From Pectinatus sottacetonis (GTDB lineage Bacteria > Bacillota > Negativicutes > Selenomonadales > Selenomonadaceae), in contig NZ_WIQK01000001.1 in the NCBI RefSeq assembly GCF_015732155.1, positions 2,366,001-2,430,000 of the forward strand: a stretch of DNA of 64,000 bases, written 5' to 3'. Of the stretch, positions 20,688 to 34,207 are shown one piece after another (position 1 is the stretch's first letter; each line of letters opens with the position of its first letter). Made by a program: the position numbers and the translations under genes. The notes under the pieces were generated by a model. It was not told the DNA's origin. It saw only the letters and a program-made list of their open reading frames with translations, and searched no databases.

Positions 20688-21979
20688 TGGTCTCATAAAT
20701 TAAGACATTTTCTGAACACGTTTATAATGAACCTGATATACTGTAGATAACACTCGAAAGAAGGTTCATTTATGTCTCGGAAAAGAAGAAATTTCACAGC
20801 AAAATTCAAATCGGATCTTGTTCTTGAACTGCTCAAGGGTGAGAAAGATCTCAACTCGGTAGCTACCGAAAATAGCATACAGCCAAATCTTTTGCGAAAC
20901 TGGAAAAAGGAATTTCTTGATAAAGCCTCTGTTGTATTCGATGATTCCCGTGAGGAGAATATCAGAGAAAAGCTTGATGAGGAACGCAAAGAGAAAGAAG
21001 AATATGCGAAAAAGGTTGGCCAGCTCACCATGCAGGTGGACTGATTGAAAAAAAATCTACAGAACTCCTTGGACCTGACTACGAAAGTAAATTTAGTCCG
21101 AAACCTTTTGACGACTAAGGAACTTCCAGCTCAAAAAGGCGCTGAATTACTTGAAGTAAATCGTACTAGCATTTATTACAAAGGAACGCCAGTTTCAGAA
21201 GAAGAGCTTGCATGTAAGGCCATTATAGACAGTATTCATACGGATAATCCCGCTTGGGGCGCACGTCAAATATCATTTCAACTTAAAAACCTCGGTTATT
21301 TAGTAGGGCGCAGGAAAGCACGCCGATATATGACGGAAATGGGAATTGACGCGATATATCCGAAGATGAATCTTTCAAAGCGCATGCAGCAGGCAAAGGT
21401 ATGTCCTTACTTAATGCGTAATGCCGTAATATCTCGGCCAAATCAAGCCTGGTCAATAGACATCACCTATATTCCCATCAAGCGAGGATTCCTTTATTTG
21501 ACTGCTGTCATCGATTGGTATAGCCGATGTATTGTTGGCTGGGAAGTAGATGATACATTGGATACAAGAATGGTCATTCATGCACTTGGAAAAGCTTTTA
21601 GAGTTGCCAAGCCACTAATTTTAAATTCAGATCAGAGGTGTCAATTCACCAGCAATGAATATATTGAATTTCTCAAGGGGAATAATATCCGTCAAAGCAT
21701 GGATGGGAAGAGACGATGGGCTGACAATATTATGATTGAACGTTGGTTTCGAAGTTTCAAGTATGAAGAAGCTTATCTGACCCAATATGCCAACCTAAAA
21801 GAGGCGCGTCAAGCAATTAAGAAGTATATCTATACCTACAATTTTAAACGGCATCATTCAGCAATTGATTATCAGGTGCCAGCTACGCTGTACTATCCAG
21901 CAATGCTGATAGACTATGCCACGGCTTAAGGTTCATTATAAAATCGTTAGATTTCTGTCTTGACAAGTGAGCCATTATA
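20683..21979 (+). mobile_element. IS3-family element 1, degenerate
   Basis: Imperfect terminal inverted repeats: left TATAATGGTCTCATAAATTA followed by AGACA; right end reads inward CTATAATGGCTCACTTGTC followed by AAGACAG. It encloses orfA and orfB. It separates a truncated IS110 gene from a truncated minus-strand gene whose sequences are unrelated, so the locus rearranged after or during insertion. No target duplication is evident. Confidence 0.75.
20772..21929 (+). pseudogene. IS3-family transposase orfA/orfB, split by an in-frame TGA
   Basis: OrfA (HTH_Tnp_1: SRKRRNFTAKFKSDLVLELL, then NWKKEFL and a leucine zipper) ends QLTMQVD-stop at 21042-21044, where relatives read VDWLKK; orfB resumes in the same frame from TTG 21045. 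OrfB has an rve integrase core with DITYIPIK (D1), LNSDQRCQFTS (D2; relatives usually have Gly where Arg stands) and the E in NIMIERWFRSFKYE. A TGG-to-TGA change plus an A8 run at the expected frameshift site suggests a dead copy. Confidence 0.8.
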
Positions 21980-22359
21980 GGGACATAGGCAATATATTTT
22001 CCAAATTGCGCCATTTTATTTATGAAGTCTTCTTTAAATTTGTACATATTATTTTCGATATTTAAAATATCATAGTCAACACTAGATGCACAACATATAG
22101 GTATTTTGTCATCACCATTAAATCCAAATGTCATATTAAGCAATTTATCATTTGGAATCACTACTTTATTATCTTTCATTATAGATATTTTTGATAATTT
22201 TATATCTATGGGTTTTTGACCATCATATTTATCTCCACGATATGTATCTTCTAGTTCCCTAAAATATCCACTAGCTTTGAAATAAATTTTCCCATTTAAA
22301 AAATCTTTTCTCCATTCTTCTTGTGCAAAAAATTTTATGATTCCAATTGGATATCTCAT
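21980..22359 (-). pseudogene. Unknown protein, C-terminus cut by IS3 element 1
   Basis: The minus-strand gene starts at ATG 22359 after GAAGGTG. About 126 native residues remain; after KYIAYV the frame runs into the IS end. The N-terminal pattern (FLNGKIYFKASGYFRELEDT, then YRGDKYDG) belongs to a family of unknown function that I recognise from accessory regions but cannot name. It is divergent from the 687-aa gene, sharing a 172-bp AT-rich intergenic region, so the two may have been a unit. Confidence 0.6.
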
Positions 22360-22531
22360 TTTGTGAACACCTTCAAATATAATAATTATTTATAATTATT
22401 ATACGCTTATACTATTAGAAAAAGTATTATGTTTTATAAATTTTCAATGTAAATATGTTTTAATTTAGTGTAATATAATTTTTGTAGATAAATTAATATA
22501 CTATAGTTCGTTTTGGAAAGGAAATTAATAA

Positions 22532-24595
22532 ATGAAATATTATAATGCTCATATTTGGGAAGTTTTTTTAAATGCTATTGAGAAAATAAGTCAAATTGAA
22601 TCACTTAATATAACTAATATTGATACGTTAAAAGGGAAATGCGTTTCACTTGCATATTATGATGCTTTAAATGATCATTCAAAGTATCAAACTACACTTT
22701 ACAAAGAAGAACAAGATGGAGATATTTTCAACTCATATTTTTTTATTATAGCCGCCAAACATTTATTATTAATAGAATTAATAGATAATGATGAGTCAAA
22801 AAAGTCTATTCGTATTATATTAGAAAAGCTACATAATTATTTAGGCAATAATTATTATTTTTATAATAAACCTGAAATTATTAAAAAGCTTATTTTATAT
22901 GGCAACATGTTTAAGATGAACAATATTTATCTTGAACAAGATAAATACATTATAAGAATTGCGGAGTCAGCAAGATATTTAAGGGAAAAAGGAATAGAAC
23001 TTTCTATAAAAAAAGGATGTATAGATTTTTGTGAACAAAAAGTATTTGAATTATTAGATAAGAAAGTTGCTGGTGTTGGTGGTATAAATAGTTATGTATA
23101 TTTATTTGAAAAATTTATTCGCCAATTATATATACCAAAAATTGATAGATATTTAATTTCTAGAACCGTTAATAAAGAAAGGAACGAGCCTATTAATTTA
23201 TTAATGCAATTATCTGGGAGACATTTACAGGATAGTCCTAAGTGTAAATTATTGGATACTTTAATAAATGAAGAAATTGTTTCTATTGCGAGAGCTTTAT
23301 TGGATATAAAAGATGTATCCGGAGAATCGTCATTTGAATATGCTTGCATGGATATAAGGGATTTTACGTATTATTTAAATAGTGAATTACATTTCGATAA
23401 AATTTGTATTCCTATGCAATATTCAAAGAAATTTATATTAAAATCGTTAGACTATTTAATTGAACCGTGGTTTAGTCATGCATATCGTAAATATTGTTAT
23501 AGAGATTATAAAATAGTTGCTGAATATGTGTTATCATTAAAATTATTTAATGGATTTATCAATGAAAGTGACATGAAAAAGCAAACACATATTGCAAAAT
23601 ATAAAATAAATCAAATTTTAGAAGATATATCAATACCTGTGTACAGTGTAAATAAAAACTATACTTCAGTAGATGCTCCTACTAATTTATTTTCCAAACC
23701 TTTAATATATTTTCCAAAACGTGGATATTATATGATTGACCAACATTTTTCAGGAATAGGATTTTATTTTTCAATATATAATTTAATAAAATCTCATTAT
23801 GCTAGTCTTGATAAAGAACAAGGTGATAATGTTGAAAAAATATTAAAAGACGAAATGACTTCAAAGGGGTATGCATATGGATGTGGTGAATATCCAAGTA
23901 TGAATAATATTCCTGCGGGGCAATGTGATTTAGTTATTAATGAAAATGAATTATATTTTTTTGAAATAAAAAAGCGCTCTATAATGAATGAATTCAACAA
24001 TGTAGATGATGTAGCATTGCTTGCTTCATTGGGTATGGGAATGATACGTGCGCAAAAGCAAGCATTTGCACATGAATTGTATTTGAAGGAAAACCAACAG
24101 CTTAGTTTGAATAATGGTAATTATATTATAAATTTTGATCATAATAAATTTCCTGCCAGAAAGATAAGTGTTTGTTTTAGTGAATATTCTTATTTGACAA
24201 GTAAAACATTCTCAAAAAATTTATTAGAAATATTACTTATTGGAGAATTTAAAACAGCGGATGCAAATAAACAAAGCGAATTATATCGTTTGAATTGCTA
24301 TGGTAATGAATTAAAAAATATTGTAAATGACATATATGATGGAATAAGACATAGAGCAAATGAAGTAACATTTGGTTCTTTATTTTGTAGTTTACAGCAA
24401 ATATTAACGGCATTATGGTGTACTAATACTGAAACTGAATTTATGAAAATAATAGATAGATGGACCTATTTTCAGGATAAAACACTTGATCCATATGTAA
24501 GTATAGTTGAACACTTATACACAGGCTCAAATTTAAGTAATGATCTATTACAAACATTAAAAAGGAATCACCAGAAAAGTATATTAATAAGATAA
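22532..24595 (+). CDS. 687-aa protein with a putative PD-(D/E)XK nuclease domain
   Basis: I do not recognise the full-length family. Residues 1 to about 420 look alpha-helical with no membrane segment. Residues about 430-540 fit a PD-(D/E)XK core: E in NVEKILKDEM, D in AGQCDLVI, then strand LYFFEIKKR supplying the E-x-K, and a later QKQAF helix. The very low GC and many Asn/Ile/Lys codons look foreign. AAAGGA precedes ATG. Lying in an IS-rich island beside remnants of defence genes, it is a candidate anti-phage nuclease; a non-defence role is not excluded. Confidence 0.65.
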   Translation: MKYYNAHIWEVFLNAIEKISQIESLNITNIDTLKGKCVSLAYYDALNDHSKYQTTLYKEEQDGDIFNSYFFIIAAKHLLLIELIDNDESKKSIRIILEKLHNYLGNNYYFYNKPEIIKKLILYGNMFKMNNIYLEQDKYIIRIAESARYLREKGIELSIKKGCIDFCEQKVFELLDKKVAGVGGINSYVYLFEKFIRQLYIPKIDRYLISRTVNKERNEPINLLMQLSGRHLQDSPKCKLLDTLINEEIVSIARALLDIKDVSGESSFEYACMDIRDFTYYLNSELHFDKICIPMQYSKKFILKSLDYLIEPWFSHAYRKYCYRDYKIVAEYVLSLKLFNGFINESDMKKQTHIAKYKINQILEDISIPVYSVNKNYTSVDAPTNLFSKPLIYFPKRGYYMIDQHFSGIGFYFSIYNLIKSHYASLDKEQGDNVEKILKDEMTSKGYAYGCGEYPSMNNIPAGQCDLVINENELYFFEIKKRSIMNEFNNVDDVALLASLGMGMIRAQKQAFAHELYLKENQQLSLNNGNYIINFDHNKFPARKISVCFSEYSYLTSKTFSKNLLEILLIGEFKTADANKQSELYRLNCYGNELKNIVNDIYDGIRHRANEVTFGSLFCSLQQILTALWCTNTETEFMKIIDRWTYFQDKTLDPYVSIVEHLYTGSNLSNDLLQTLKRNHQKSILIR

Positions 24596-24913
24596 TTAAT
24601 TTACAATTATAAAAATCGGGACTTCTTCATAGATTGTGTAAACCTTCAAGCTGATGTAATATAAAATCAGTTTGGAGGTTTTATTATGAGATAGTAAACT
24701 AAACAACTTTTTTAAGGGTATGACTTTATCCACTGTTTTATTTGAGCGCTCAATTTTACACTGTTGCATATATTTTAGCTGCTTCTTTTAGAAATACTTT
24801 TACAGCAAGCCGTAGATAATGCTGTTTTGGATAATGGAAAAAAACCATTCTGTAAGTAATTTTAGAATCAATTTGAAAGTATTTTAAAGGCCTGATGGAT
24901 GGAGAATTCCTTA
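24596..24913. other. 318-bp remnant region, no intact gene
   Basis: Contains a segment reading outward as GGTTTACACAATCTATGAAG (reverse of about 24628-24647), resembling IS256/mutator-type ends, followed by GGAGG and ATG-AGA-TAG near 24686, which looks like a transposase start cut after two codons. The rest is gene debris leading into the truncated LysR gene. Assignment is tentative. Confidence 0.3.
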
Positions 24914-32165: not shown

Positions 32166-33302
32166 ATGAAAATTATACTTATGGATAAAGAAATTCCTGT
32201 AATAGAAGTAAATATAAATAGTTTATCTGGCCGTGTAAGGGAAATAACAAAAATATATAATGAAGAATATTTACCCTTACCAGTTAAATATCAAACTGAT
32301 AAAGAATACGCATTAGAATCATGGATAAAGTCTCGAAGTATTTCAACCTCTCGACAAGATTTATCAATTTTATTAGAAGCTGCAAAGGTAGAAACTGCTA
32401 GTGCACTATCTCTTAAAAACTTAGGATTAAATTTATCTGATCAATATTGGTATAAACCTAAAGAAGCTGATATAACTTGGAAACAAGTTAATTTATTTGA
32501 TAATAAATTTGATACCCAAAGTTTCTCATCTTCAGATGATATGATATCATCATATTCTCCTGATATGAGTTCTAATGGAGAACTTAGGAAATTTTGGACC
32601 ATAAAAAATAATAAGCGCTATCTATATAAAGAAAGTACAGCTCCTTATTATCAGCAAGCCTATAATGAAGTTTTTGCATCGAAATTGCTAGCTGAGTTAA
32701 ATATTCCTCATGTTACGTATAAATTAGATATTTTGAAAGATAAAGCATATAGTGTTTGCGAAACATTTATAGATCACGACACAGAATATGTTCCGGCGTT
32801 GTATATTCGGAATGCTTGTAAAAAAAACAACAATGAAAATGATTATAAACATTTTCTTCGTTGTATGAAAGTATTAAAAATACCCTGTAAAAGGGAATCT
32901 ATTGACACAATGTTAGCATTCGATTATTTAATTAATAATAATGATAGACATTATGGTAATTTTGGTTTTATAAGAAATGCAGAAACATTAAAATTCATAG
33001 GCTTTGCACCTCTATTTGATCATGGTAATAGCCTATGGTATAAAGATATAACTAAAAACATGAAACTTAAAAGCCAGGAGGCAAAACCATTTAGAAGTTT
33101 ACACGAAAATCAAATTAAGTTAATAGAAGAATCTACCATATCTGTAGAAGATATTACTGAAAAAGATATTACTGAAATTGCCCATGATGTTTTTGAAAAA
33201 AATTCACTTATTGATAATGAACGTATTAGGCGTATAATATATAATATTGATTTTCGAGCACAGCAGTTAAGGAAAATAATGACAAATTCATTTAGGCGGT
33301 AA
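32166..33302 (+). CDS. HipA-like protein kinase
   Basis: 378 aa. The C-terminal half carries the HipA kinase signature: NNNDRHYGNFGFI (catalytic Asp in the NDRH loop) and PLFDHGNSLW (metal-binding D-x-G). A lysine-bearing strand (KRYLYKEST) lies upstream. The N-terminal about 120 residues are not a normal HipA N-domain. HipA kinases phosphorylate glutamyl-tRNA synthetase or other targets. No HipB-like antitoxin is adjacent; a Fic-fold gene follows 44 bases downstream. AAAGGAG precedes ATG. Confidence 0.85.
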   Translation: MKIILMDKEIPVIEVNINSLSGRVREITKIYNEEYLPLPVKYQTDKEYALESWIKSRSISTSRQDLSILLEAAKVETASALSLKNLGLNLSDQYWYKPKEADITWKQVNLFDNKFDTQSFSSSDDMISSYSPDMSSNGELRKFWTIKNNKRYLYKESTAPYYQQAYNEVFASKLLAELNIPHVTYKLDILKDKAYSVCETFIDHDTEYVPALYIRNACKKNNNENDYKHFLRCMKVLKIPCKRESIDTMLAFDYLINNNDRHYGNFGFIRNAETLKFIGFAPLFDHGNSLWYKDITKNMKLKSQEAKPFRSLHENQIKLIEESTISVEDITEKDITEIAHDVFEKNSLIDNERIRRIIYNIDFRAQQLRKIMTNSFRR

Positions 33303-33346
33303 TATATTACTTTTTTAAAAAATTTTCGTTAAAAGAAGGTATAAAC

Positions 33347-34207
33347 GTGAAGCAGATATATAATTTGGATTTAGCTAAGTATAAAATAAAAAAAGAACAA
33401 AATATTATACTCGCAAAAAAATACTTAGTTTCTTCTATATATAATACCGCAAAAATAGAAGGTTGTAATGTCACTTATCCAGACACGCAGACCATTCTTG
33501 CCGGAGCGGTAATAAATAATGTTTCCGTGGATGATATCCAAACGGTCTTAAATTTACGCGATGCTTACAGGTTCATGATTACCAGCATAAATACCCCTTT
33601 CTCACTAGAATATGTTTGCAAAATTAATAAATATGTTTCCCGCAACGAAAGTTTGCAATGGGGCATACTAAGAAGTGGTCATGTCGGTGTCGGTGGTACA
33701 GATTGGAAACCAGAAATTCCTGATAAAAAAAGCACGGAAGAAAATATTAAACGAATACTGGCATTAAATAATCCGATAGACAGAGCTTTAGAATATTTTT
33801 CGTATGCCGTGAAAAGCCAATTGTTTTGGGATGGGAATAAACGTACTTCCATAATAGCAGCAAATAAAATTTTAGTAAGCAATCAATGCGGTATACTGAA
33901 TATCATGCAGGAAAACATAGCGGAATTTAATAAAACTTTGCTATATTATTATAATACCAACGATAACCATCCACTGCGAAGATGTCTTAAGCGTTCAATA
34001 TATTCGGTAGATAAAGGATTTAACATGATTAATTATTATGCTGCGGAAACCGAATTATTTATAGAAACAGCAAATAAATTGATACGTGAGGGGGAAAATC
34101 CCCGTGATATAAAAGAAGTTTTCAAGAAGTTTGTCTTAGATGATAGACAAAATGAAGAAAAAAATAAGCTGCTGGAATCGCTTAAGGCATTTAGCAATGG
34201 CAGATAA
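33347..34207 (+). CDS. Fic-fold protein with degenerate catalytic motif
   Basis: 286 aa. The Fic core is recognisable: an SSIYNTAKIEG inhibitory-type helix (S/T-x-x-x-E/N-like) near residue 30, a flap region, and the motif QLFWDGNKRT near residue 163. Canonical Fic is HxFxDGNxR; the catalytic His is Gln here, while F, D, G, N and R are kept. AMP transfer is therefore unlikely by the standard mechanism; other chemistry or a binding role is possible. GTG start after AGAAGG. It pairs with the upstream HipA-like kinase. Confidence 0.8.
   Translation: MKQIYNLDLAKYKIKKEQNIILAKKYLVSSIYNTAKIEGCNVTYPDTQTILAGAVINNVSVDDIQTVLNLRDAYRFMITSINTPFSLEYVCKINKYVSRNESLQWGILRSGHVGVGGTDWKPEIPDKKSTEENIKRILALNNPIDRALEYFSYAVKSQLFWDGNKRTSIIAANKILVSNQCGILNIMQENIAEFNKTLLYYYNTNDNHPLRRCLKRSIYSVDKGFNMINYYAAETELFIETANKLIREGENPRDIKEVFKKFVLDDRQNEEKNKLLESLKAFSNGR

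Follow-up and report, generated by a model that had tools for sequence, protein, structure and literature searches.

A 687-aa gene in the 64,000-nucleotide stretch of Pectinatus sottacetonis DNA analysed in the present study (hereafter the window) belongs to a protein family that is well supported, based on sequence, as PD-(D/E)XK nucleases. The family is rare and patchily distributed, residing on plasmids in distantly related bacteria that range from Xanthomonas to Rhizobium. Our best explanation, to which we assign a probability of roughly one half, is that its members are stand-alone, N-terminally gated PD-(D/E)XK nucleases, most likely directed against phage or other mobile DNA and carried as one-gene cargo; we infer that the proteins are catalytically active, that they act on DNA, that the N-terminal region gates them and that they serve in defence. 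Under this explanation the N-terminal ~410 residues would detect either a foreign DNA structure or a cue of infection, and would keep the C-terminal YraN-like nuclease in check. Upon recognition, the metal-dependent nuclease would cut DNA, which would most likely belong to an invading phage or plasmid, and the gene would travel as one-gene cargo on plasmids and IS-rich islands. A more specific version, namely a new single-gene anti-phage system in which a YraN-type nuclease is fused to a long uncatalogued N-terminal sensor and borne on mostly conjugative plasmids, is put forward tentatively. No model in the libraries covers the family, yet full-length members with the nuclease motif intact recur in bacteria that are very distantly related; should the gene prove to act in defence, it would represent an additional one-gene system whose sensor is uncatalogued.

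The open reading frame noted in a preliminary description of this DNA is intact, begins with ATG and is clearly coding (Table 1). In 500 base-shuffled copies read in six frames the longest open stretch reached 146 codons (mean 72), as against the 687 codons of the gene, and the five remaining frames of the same interval contain 31-96 stops each. GC by codon position (0.344/0.265/0.160) follows the pattern of a coding AT-rich gene, and the AT-richness remarked on earlier is real, with a GC content of 25.6% vs 34.1% for the whole window. The protein was previously called unrecognised, and scans of Pfam, PADLOC, NCBIfam, PHROGs and PDB sequences returned nothing significant for it; a match to Tad6 was rejected (E 0.16, under the cut-off). 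Its single match in its own genome is itself and, since it lies on a 2.6-Mb contig, the copy studied here is chromosomal.

Table 1 Features of the nuclease gene and its immediate surroundings. A6 is the alignment of nine full-length family members; residue counts over 11 loci refer to the window and ten plasmid loci
Feature	Position in window	Strand	Basis
687-aa gene (P0001): N-terminal region, PD-(D/E)XK core and C-terminal tail	22532-24595	+	ORF; tblastn; alignment
Shine-Dalgarno-like AAAGGA 5' of the nuclease ATG	22517-22522	+	read from sequence
N-terminal region, residues 1-411, matching no library	22532-23764	+	alignment, library scans
PD-(D/E)XK core, residues 425-560, best conserved part	23804-24211	+	alignment, library scans, profile alignment
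E435, glutamate in presumed helix ahead of the core strands (GDxxE)	23834-23836	+	9/9 in A6; 11/11 loci
D466, D of the PD motif (QCD)	23927-23929	+	9/9 in A6; 11/11 loci
E478-I-K480, (D/E)XK half motif	23963-23971	+	9/9 in A6; 10/10 copies uncut there
Q510, invariant Q past the ExK strand	24059-24061	+	9/9 in A6; 11/11 loci
C-terminal tail, residues 566-687; Q623 invariant in A6	24227-24592	+	alignment
IS3-family element (ORFs of 90 aa and 294 aa); right end cuts the divergent gene	20772-21929	+	ORFs; similarity
Divergent gene fragment comprising the initial ~126 codons of a 248-aa gene (phage-associated family phrog_26561)	21980-22359	-	PHROGs, comparison with relative
Short repeat (74 bp) bounding the nuclease gene on the right	24617-24690	.	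near-identical matches in sister genomes

Conservation across the family is concentrated in the nuclease core. Alignment A6 has 16 invariant columns, eight of which fall within residues 431-518 (G431, E435, Y454, D466, E478, K480, Q510 and L518), and the mean column share is 0.46 for residues 425-560 vs 0.34 elsewhere. The conserved D...(D/E)XK motif together with a preceding acidic residue, the pattern by which membership of this superfamily is recognised from sequence, is present throughout the alignment. The C-terminal PD-(D/E)XK assignment in the preliminary description is thus right by sequence, all five core residues being invariant and the profile aligning with YraN, and the motif string on which it was built (E...QCDLVI...FFEIKKR) is present and kept in distant homologues. 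In PMC1189080, YraN is regarded as one of the nuclease families of the PD-(D/E)XK superfamily, with ID-EVK as its typical motif. A profile search of the core, proposed at that earlier stage, matched YraN as well as weakly matching library nuclease models. With hhalign, residues 412-565 aligned to an alignment of 20 YraN-like ORFs at 97.3% probability (E 2e-11), a comparison that is partly circular because those ORFs had been picked by an earlier profile plus motif; the N-terminal part aligned to the same ORFs at a probability of 2.5%. The YraN-like set derives from searching the phylum with an early profile of four rows (A1), which matched 32 of 398 genomes. Most of these matches were rejected as family members because 28 of the 32 places lie in YraN-sized open frames of 111-181 aa. 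Among the 28 loci examined for the alignment, L009-L036, an ORF carrying the required motif was obtained for 20 and the other eight were dropped.

Scans of the nine members against fixed libraries are independent of the family profile and hence non-circular. All of their matches are weak, and they fall over the nuclease core wherever the stretch of a nuclease model was displayed. Each of the YraN models of NCBIfam matches at most five of the nine members (lowest E 0.00029), with GapS1 and HpyAIV weakly matching one member each. In Pfam, DpnII, NERD, UPF0102 and Card1 endonuclease each weakly match one member, while in PADLOC the candidate PDC-M29B matches three of nine, and CARF-PDDEXK models and Csx1 one each. 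The top nuclease among matches to solved structures is the UPF0102 protein 3fov, at an E-value of only 0.17. Matches of members to DUF7656, DUF234, Tad6, Csa3, HEC-02B, several unnamed PRK models, PqqC and NirJ2 were set aside as chance or unusable. AlphaFold2 models, run on single sequences without an alignment, were of very low confidence, with a pLDDT of 33 over the full-length protein and of 35 over residues 408-562.

The large N-terminal region was previously said to fit no family, and the library scans bear this out; the helical character ascribed to it at the same time is not confirmed by the very low-confidence model of the whole protein. It is conserved at a low level across the family, with G154, G183, P220, Q296 and N374 invariant in all nine rows, and presumably serves as a sensor, clamp or gate.

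Family members were found mainly on plasmids. A tblastn search with the 687-aa protein matched five of 72,556 plasmid records, from Xanthomonas (E 3e-24), Methylobacter and Acinetobacter, and searches starting from relatives (8-16 of 72,556 records per query) added Alteromonas, Bradyrhizobium, Rhizobium, Shewanella and Phaeobacter. Thirteen of 16 plasmid records with family matches are typed as conjugative, and one Rhizobium phaseoli member is annotated as 'YraN family protein'. The nine full-length members are 646-700 aa in length, the other eight being 13-22% identical to the 687-aa protein, which sits on the longest branch of the family tree (2.61 changes per column), a tree in which one of six inner branches is starred (weak support). 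For locus-level counts we used ten distinct plasmid loci, omitting near-identical copies (the second Xanthomonas 85-10 record, pLMG930.2, three Alteromonas and the second Bradyrhizobium) and R. phaseoli NZ_CP013523, the hits of which run close to those of Rhizobium C104. Two copies are broken: the member on Xanthomonas pLMG930.2 (L004:6784-8885) is split into two frames, and that on Shewanella pS18501 (L042:5299-8627) is split by an IS3 element. Such breakage fits a gene that is gained and lost like defence genes, and would also fit any other dispensable gene. The accession and locus tag of the Xanthomonas member are absent from the literature retrieved for them, which we do not take to mean that the family is unpublished.

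Closer to the window, the nuclease gene has no match as a protein in any of four same-genus genomes, nor at the DNA level in the four (40 candidates scored per genome), and a C-terminal scrap of it (L006, E 9e-7) is present in one genome of another genus of the same taxonomic family. Searching 380 genomes of the window's class with the A6 profile recovered, besides the window, a single distant relative in genome G759 (E 2e-14). This 787-aa protein has no pairwise match to the 687-aa protein; it is flanked by a TIR-like 102-aa ORF upstream and, downstream, by an MBL-type hydrolase (both domains named by eye), and the locus (L069:3068-7295, contig C107) may encode a multi-gene defence system. 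The same profile at 1e-10 gave no match in 97 + 10 genomes of two other classes, a search run without a positive control, and in a class of 46 genomes the sole match was a weak one in G342 (E 4e-10). A 521-aa ORF (L008/L044) is counted as a possible distant relative only. No relative was found in phages by tblastn with the 687-aa protein and the Alteromonas member as queries, or in the viral contigs scanned for the family; two pattern scans of genome contigs likewise returned none, the patterns being perhaps poor for so diverged a family.

The genes surrounding family members are suggestive of an association with defence. Named defence genes lie within ~9 kb of five of ten distinct plasmid loci vs one of eight control stretches, a count that favours the family loci because some of their neighbours were scanned with PADLOC, whereas the controls were judged by annotation alone. 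For the eight plasmids with both kinds of stretch the figures are 5/8 vs 1/8 (Fisher two-sided ~0.12, worked by hand). Controls were stretches of equal length elsewhere on eight of the plasmids; the Acinetobacter record was too small to provide one and that of R. phaseoli S3 is unannotated, and helicases and an IscB gene were not scored as defence. The sole named defence gene in the controls is Hachiman HamA. Neighbours of the family include BilD (Xanthomonas), AbiEii (Alteromonas), HmaB and HmaC together with a CHAT gene (Bradyrhizobium), and caspase, TIR and RelBE genes (Shewanella). In R. jaguaris (L041:3266-9266) a 1272-aa Dsr1-like SIR2 gene lies 97 bp upstream of the nuclease on the same strand; it carries the Dsr1 N-terminal portion, with an NCBIfam match at E 1e-100 that stays below the cut-off. 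The Methylobacter, Acinetobacter, Phaeobacter, Rhizobium C104 and R. phaseoli S3 loci were negative or too weak, the last two being counted as negative despite a NucS-domain gene with a weak PDC-S11 match (C104) and a 1438-aa gene with a weak, below-cut-off NACHT match 209 bp upstream of the nuclease on the same strand (S3; L040:3085-9635). As the nuclease directly follows large sensor-type genes in these two rhizobia (R. jaguaris and R. phaseoli S3), it may also act as an exchangeable effector module. Overall, a defence role for the family is consistent with these neighbourhoods, although unproven.

The window copy itself resides in a mobile, IS-rich setting, as had been proposed. In same-genus genomes the left flank is kept to ~13.8-14.1 kb (4/4) and the right flank from ~34.6 kb (3/4), on different contigs, and the stretch between them is rich in mobile elements (group II intron RT, IS66, IS110, IS3 and DDE transposases). 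This stretch also carries genes for HipA, Fic and a DinG/YoaA-like helicase of 698 aa, the last scoring below NCBIfam cut-offs, so that of the island contents listed in the preliminary description HipA and the helicase are present; none of the 14 window ORFs scanned with PADLOC (10 + 4) was recognised as CBASS. The HipA-like gene is followed by a Fic-domain gene (32166-34207); both genes resemble PADLOC candidate families (PDC-M03A, PDC-S04), and a 95% identical counterpart of the pair lies on a different contig of genome G046. The 294-aa ORF of the IS3-family element is similar to annotated IS3 transposases at loci L037 and L042. The repeat to the right of the nuclease gene has three matches of 97-99% identity in G046 and less similar ones at other places; it is probably a remnant IS end, which we take to be perhaps of IS256 type.

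The nuclease had been suggested to be one half of a two-gene defence system, the partner of which, divergently transcribed to its left, was cut by an IS. The cut is real: an intact 248-aa relative in the same-genus genome G044 (66% identity over 125 residues) aligns with the remnant over its first 134 residues only, ending at window position 21982 beside the IS3-family element, and no trace of the rest of the gene was found in the window. The divergent arrangement with a 172-bp shared upstream region, and the location of both genes in one AT-rich block, would suit such a system. Folding of the 172-bp region shows nothing notable (z 0.12). However, the remnant matches the phage-associated family phrog_26561 (E 2.6e-10), and its relative in G044, a genome with no match to the 687-aa nuclease, occurs in a phage-like region. 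The upstream region shared with the nuclease was not carried along, because DNA similarity to the G044 copy ends near the gene start. No relative of the divergent gene was found at any of 11 plasmid loci (10 distinct; best E 0.59), and close relatives of the 687-aa protein with an intact partner were not found. Among 60 related genomes the remnant's family has three matches, namely itself, the G044 copy (E 6.9e-21) and a weak one in G125; searches of phages (tblastn) and viral contigs for this family found nothing. The G044 copy lies between IS3-type elements, and the region (L049:1644-14883, G044:C14) is IS-loaded, with genes read by eye as encoding a phage portal protein, recombinases and a DNA polymerase of phage type. 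An all-vs-all comparison of ORFs of at least 80 aa from the window stretch and ten plasmid loci revealed no neighbour common to the family. Neighbours common to pairs of loci were IS transposases, an integrase, a ParA-type and a LysR-type gene, a short antisense frame and, at the Rhizobium C104 and R. phaseoli S3 loci, a NucS-type domain. Given the lack of a common neighbour and the absence of the partner from the plasmid loci, the nuclease looks like a one-gene unit. The two-gene system is consequently highly improbable; the divergent gene looks like a stray phage-associated gene unrelated to the nuclease, and a misleading lead is thereby removed.

Other functions for a stand-alone nuclease also need to be weighed. 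A role in repair or recombination of plasmid and island DNA, as a YraN-like nuclease of Holliday-junction or flap type serving the mobile element, would agree with the closest nuclease core being that of YraN and with the term 'YraN-like HJRs' used in PMC1189080. It would also agree with an S24 peptidase and a Y-family polymerase near the Alteromonas locus, a uracil-DNA glycosylase near that of Methylobacter, and replication, partition or transfer genes by Rhizobium C104 (repBC, trb) and Shewanella (ParA). We nevertheless regard it as unlikely, as the family occurs sparsely and patchily, each query matching 5-16 of 72,556 plasmid records, the gene is broken in two plasmids, most loci share no repair or transfer gene, and family loci are, weakly, nearer to defence genes than are the controls. 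The plasmid-borne distribution could instead reflect competition between plasmids or an addiction-like toxin, possibly acting on RNA. Some CARF-PDDEXK, Csx1 and Card1 proteins cut RNA, and the weak matches to their models point the same way; with no antitoxin-like neighbour common between loci and a chromosomal copy in the window, we consider this quite unlikely. A separate question is whether the window copy is still functional. Past ExK it reads SIMNEFNNV and thus lacks both the L/I-T and the slightly later G that are present in all nine of the remaining uncut members. The window copy may therefore be altered, and its predicted activity is less certain than that of the family. These missing residues, the longest branch in the tree and the C-terminal scrap that is all one genome of a related genus keeps could mark a decaying, non-functional member in a junk-laden IS island, but the full 687-codon frame, the strong codon-position bias and the retention of all five core residues make this very unlikely. 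The stand-alone, N-terminally gated nuclease directed against phage or mobile DNA thus remains our preferred explanation.

Among known systems, the family resembles YraN/UPF0102 in its E - D - ExK core pattern, and YraN models are its commonest weak NCBIfam matches. The YraN-like ORFs analysed are ~110-180 aa long, whereas family members reach ~680 aa because the N-terminus adds ~410 aa and the tail ~120 aa, and are rare and mobile; no member reaches the YraN cut-off (best 20.8 vs 69.05 bits). The Methylobacter member aligns weakly over the core with GapS1 (NF047931; E 0.0081, positions 251-356 of 455), at 15.1 bits against a cut-off of 320 bits, and is the only one of the nine to do so. Three of nine members weakly match the PADLOC candidate PDC-M29B over the core (best E 0.00034), covering 35-45 positions of a 164-position model; the 687-aa protein itself has no match. 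A PD-(D/E)XK-like protein with a SEC-C-type tail (L025:484-2916; G245) was detected with the four-row profile A1 at E 1.4e-4 and is absent with A6 at the stricter 1e-10. By eye, its core (DGLVLFDGNLFIIEAKAGSLS) and the stretch after it resemble the family, while its length of 810 aa and SEC-C-like C-terminus do not. Shedu (DUF4263) was not listed at E up to 1 for any of the nine members in Pfam or PADLOC. The family is therefore not filed as Shedu, YraN or GapS1, matches to the defining models having been sought and not obtained. In organisation, Shedu is nonetheless similar, as it combines recognition at the N-terminus with a PD-(D/E)XK domain in a single protein, although N-terminal recognition is presumed in the present family. 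According to a review (PMC12904381), the N-terminal region of Shedu (SduA) clamps DNA ends, autoinhibition is relieved and the PD-(D/E)XK domain nicks DNA. By analogy, Shedu offers the best model for how the nuclease family might work.
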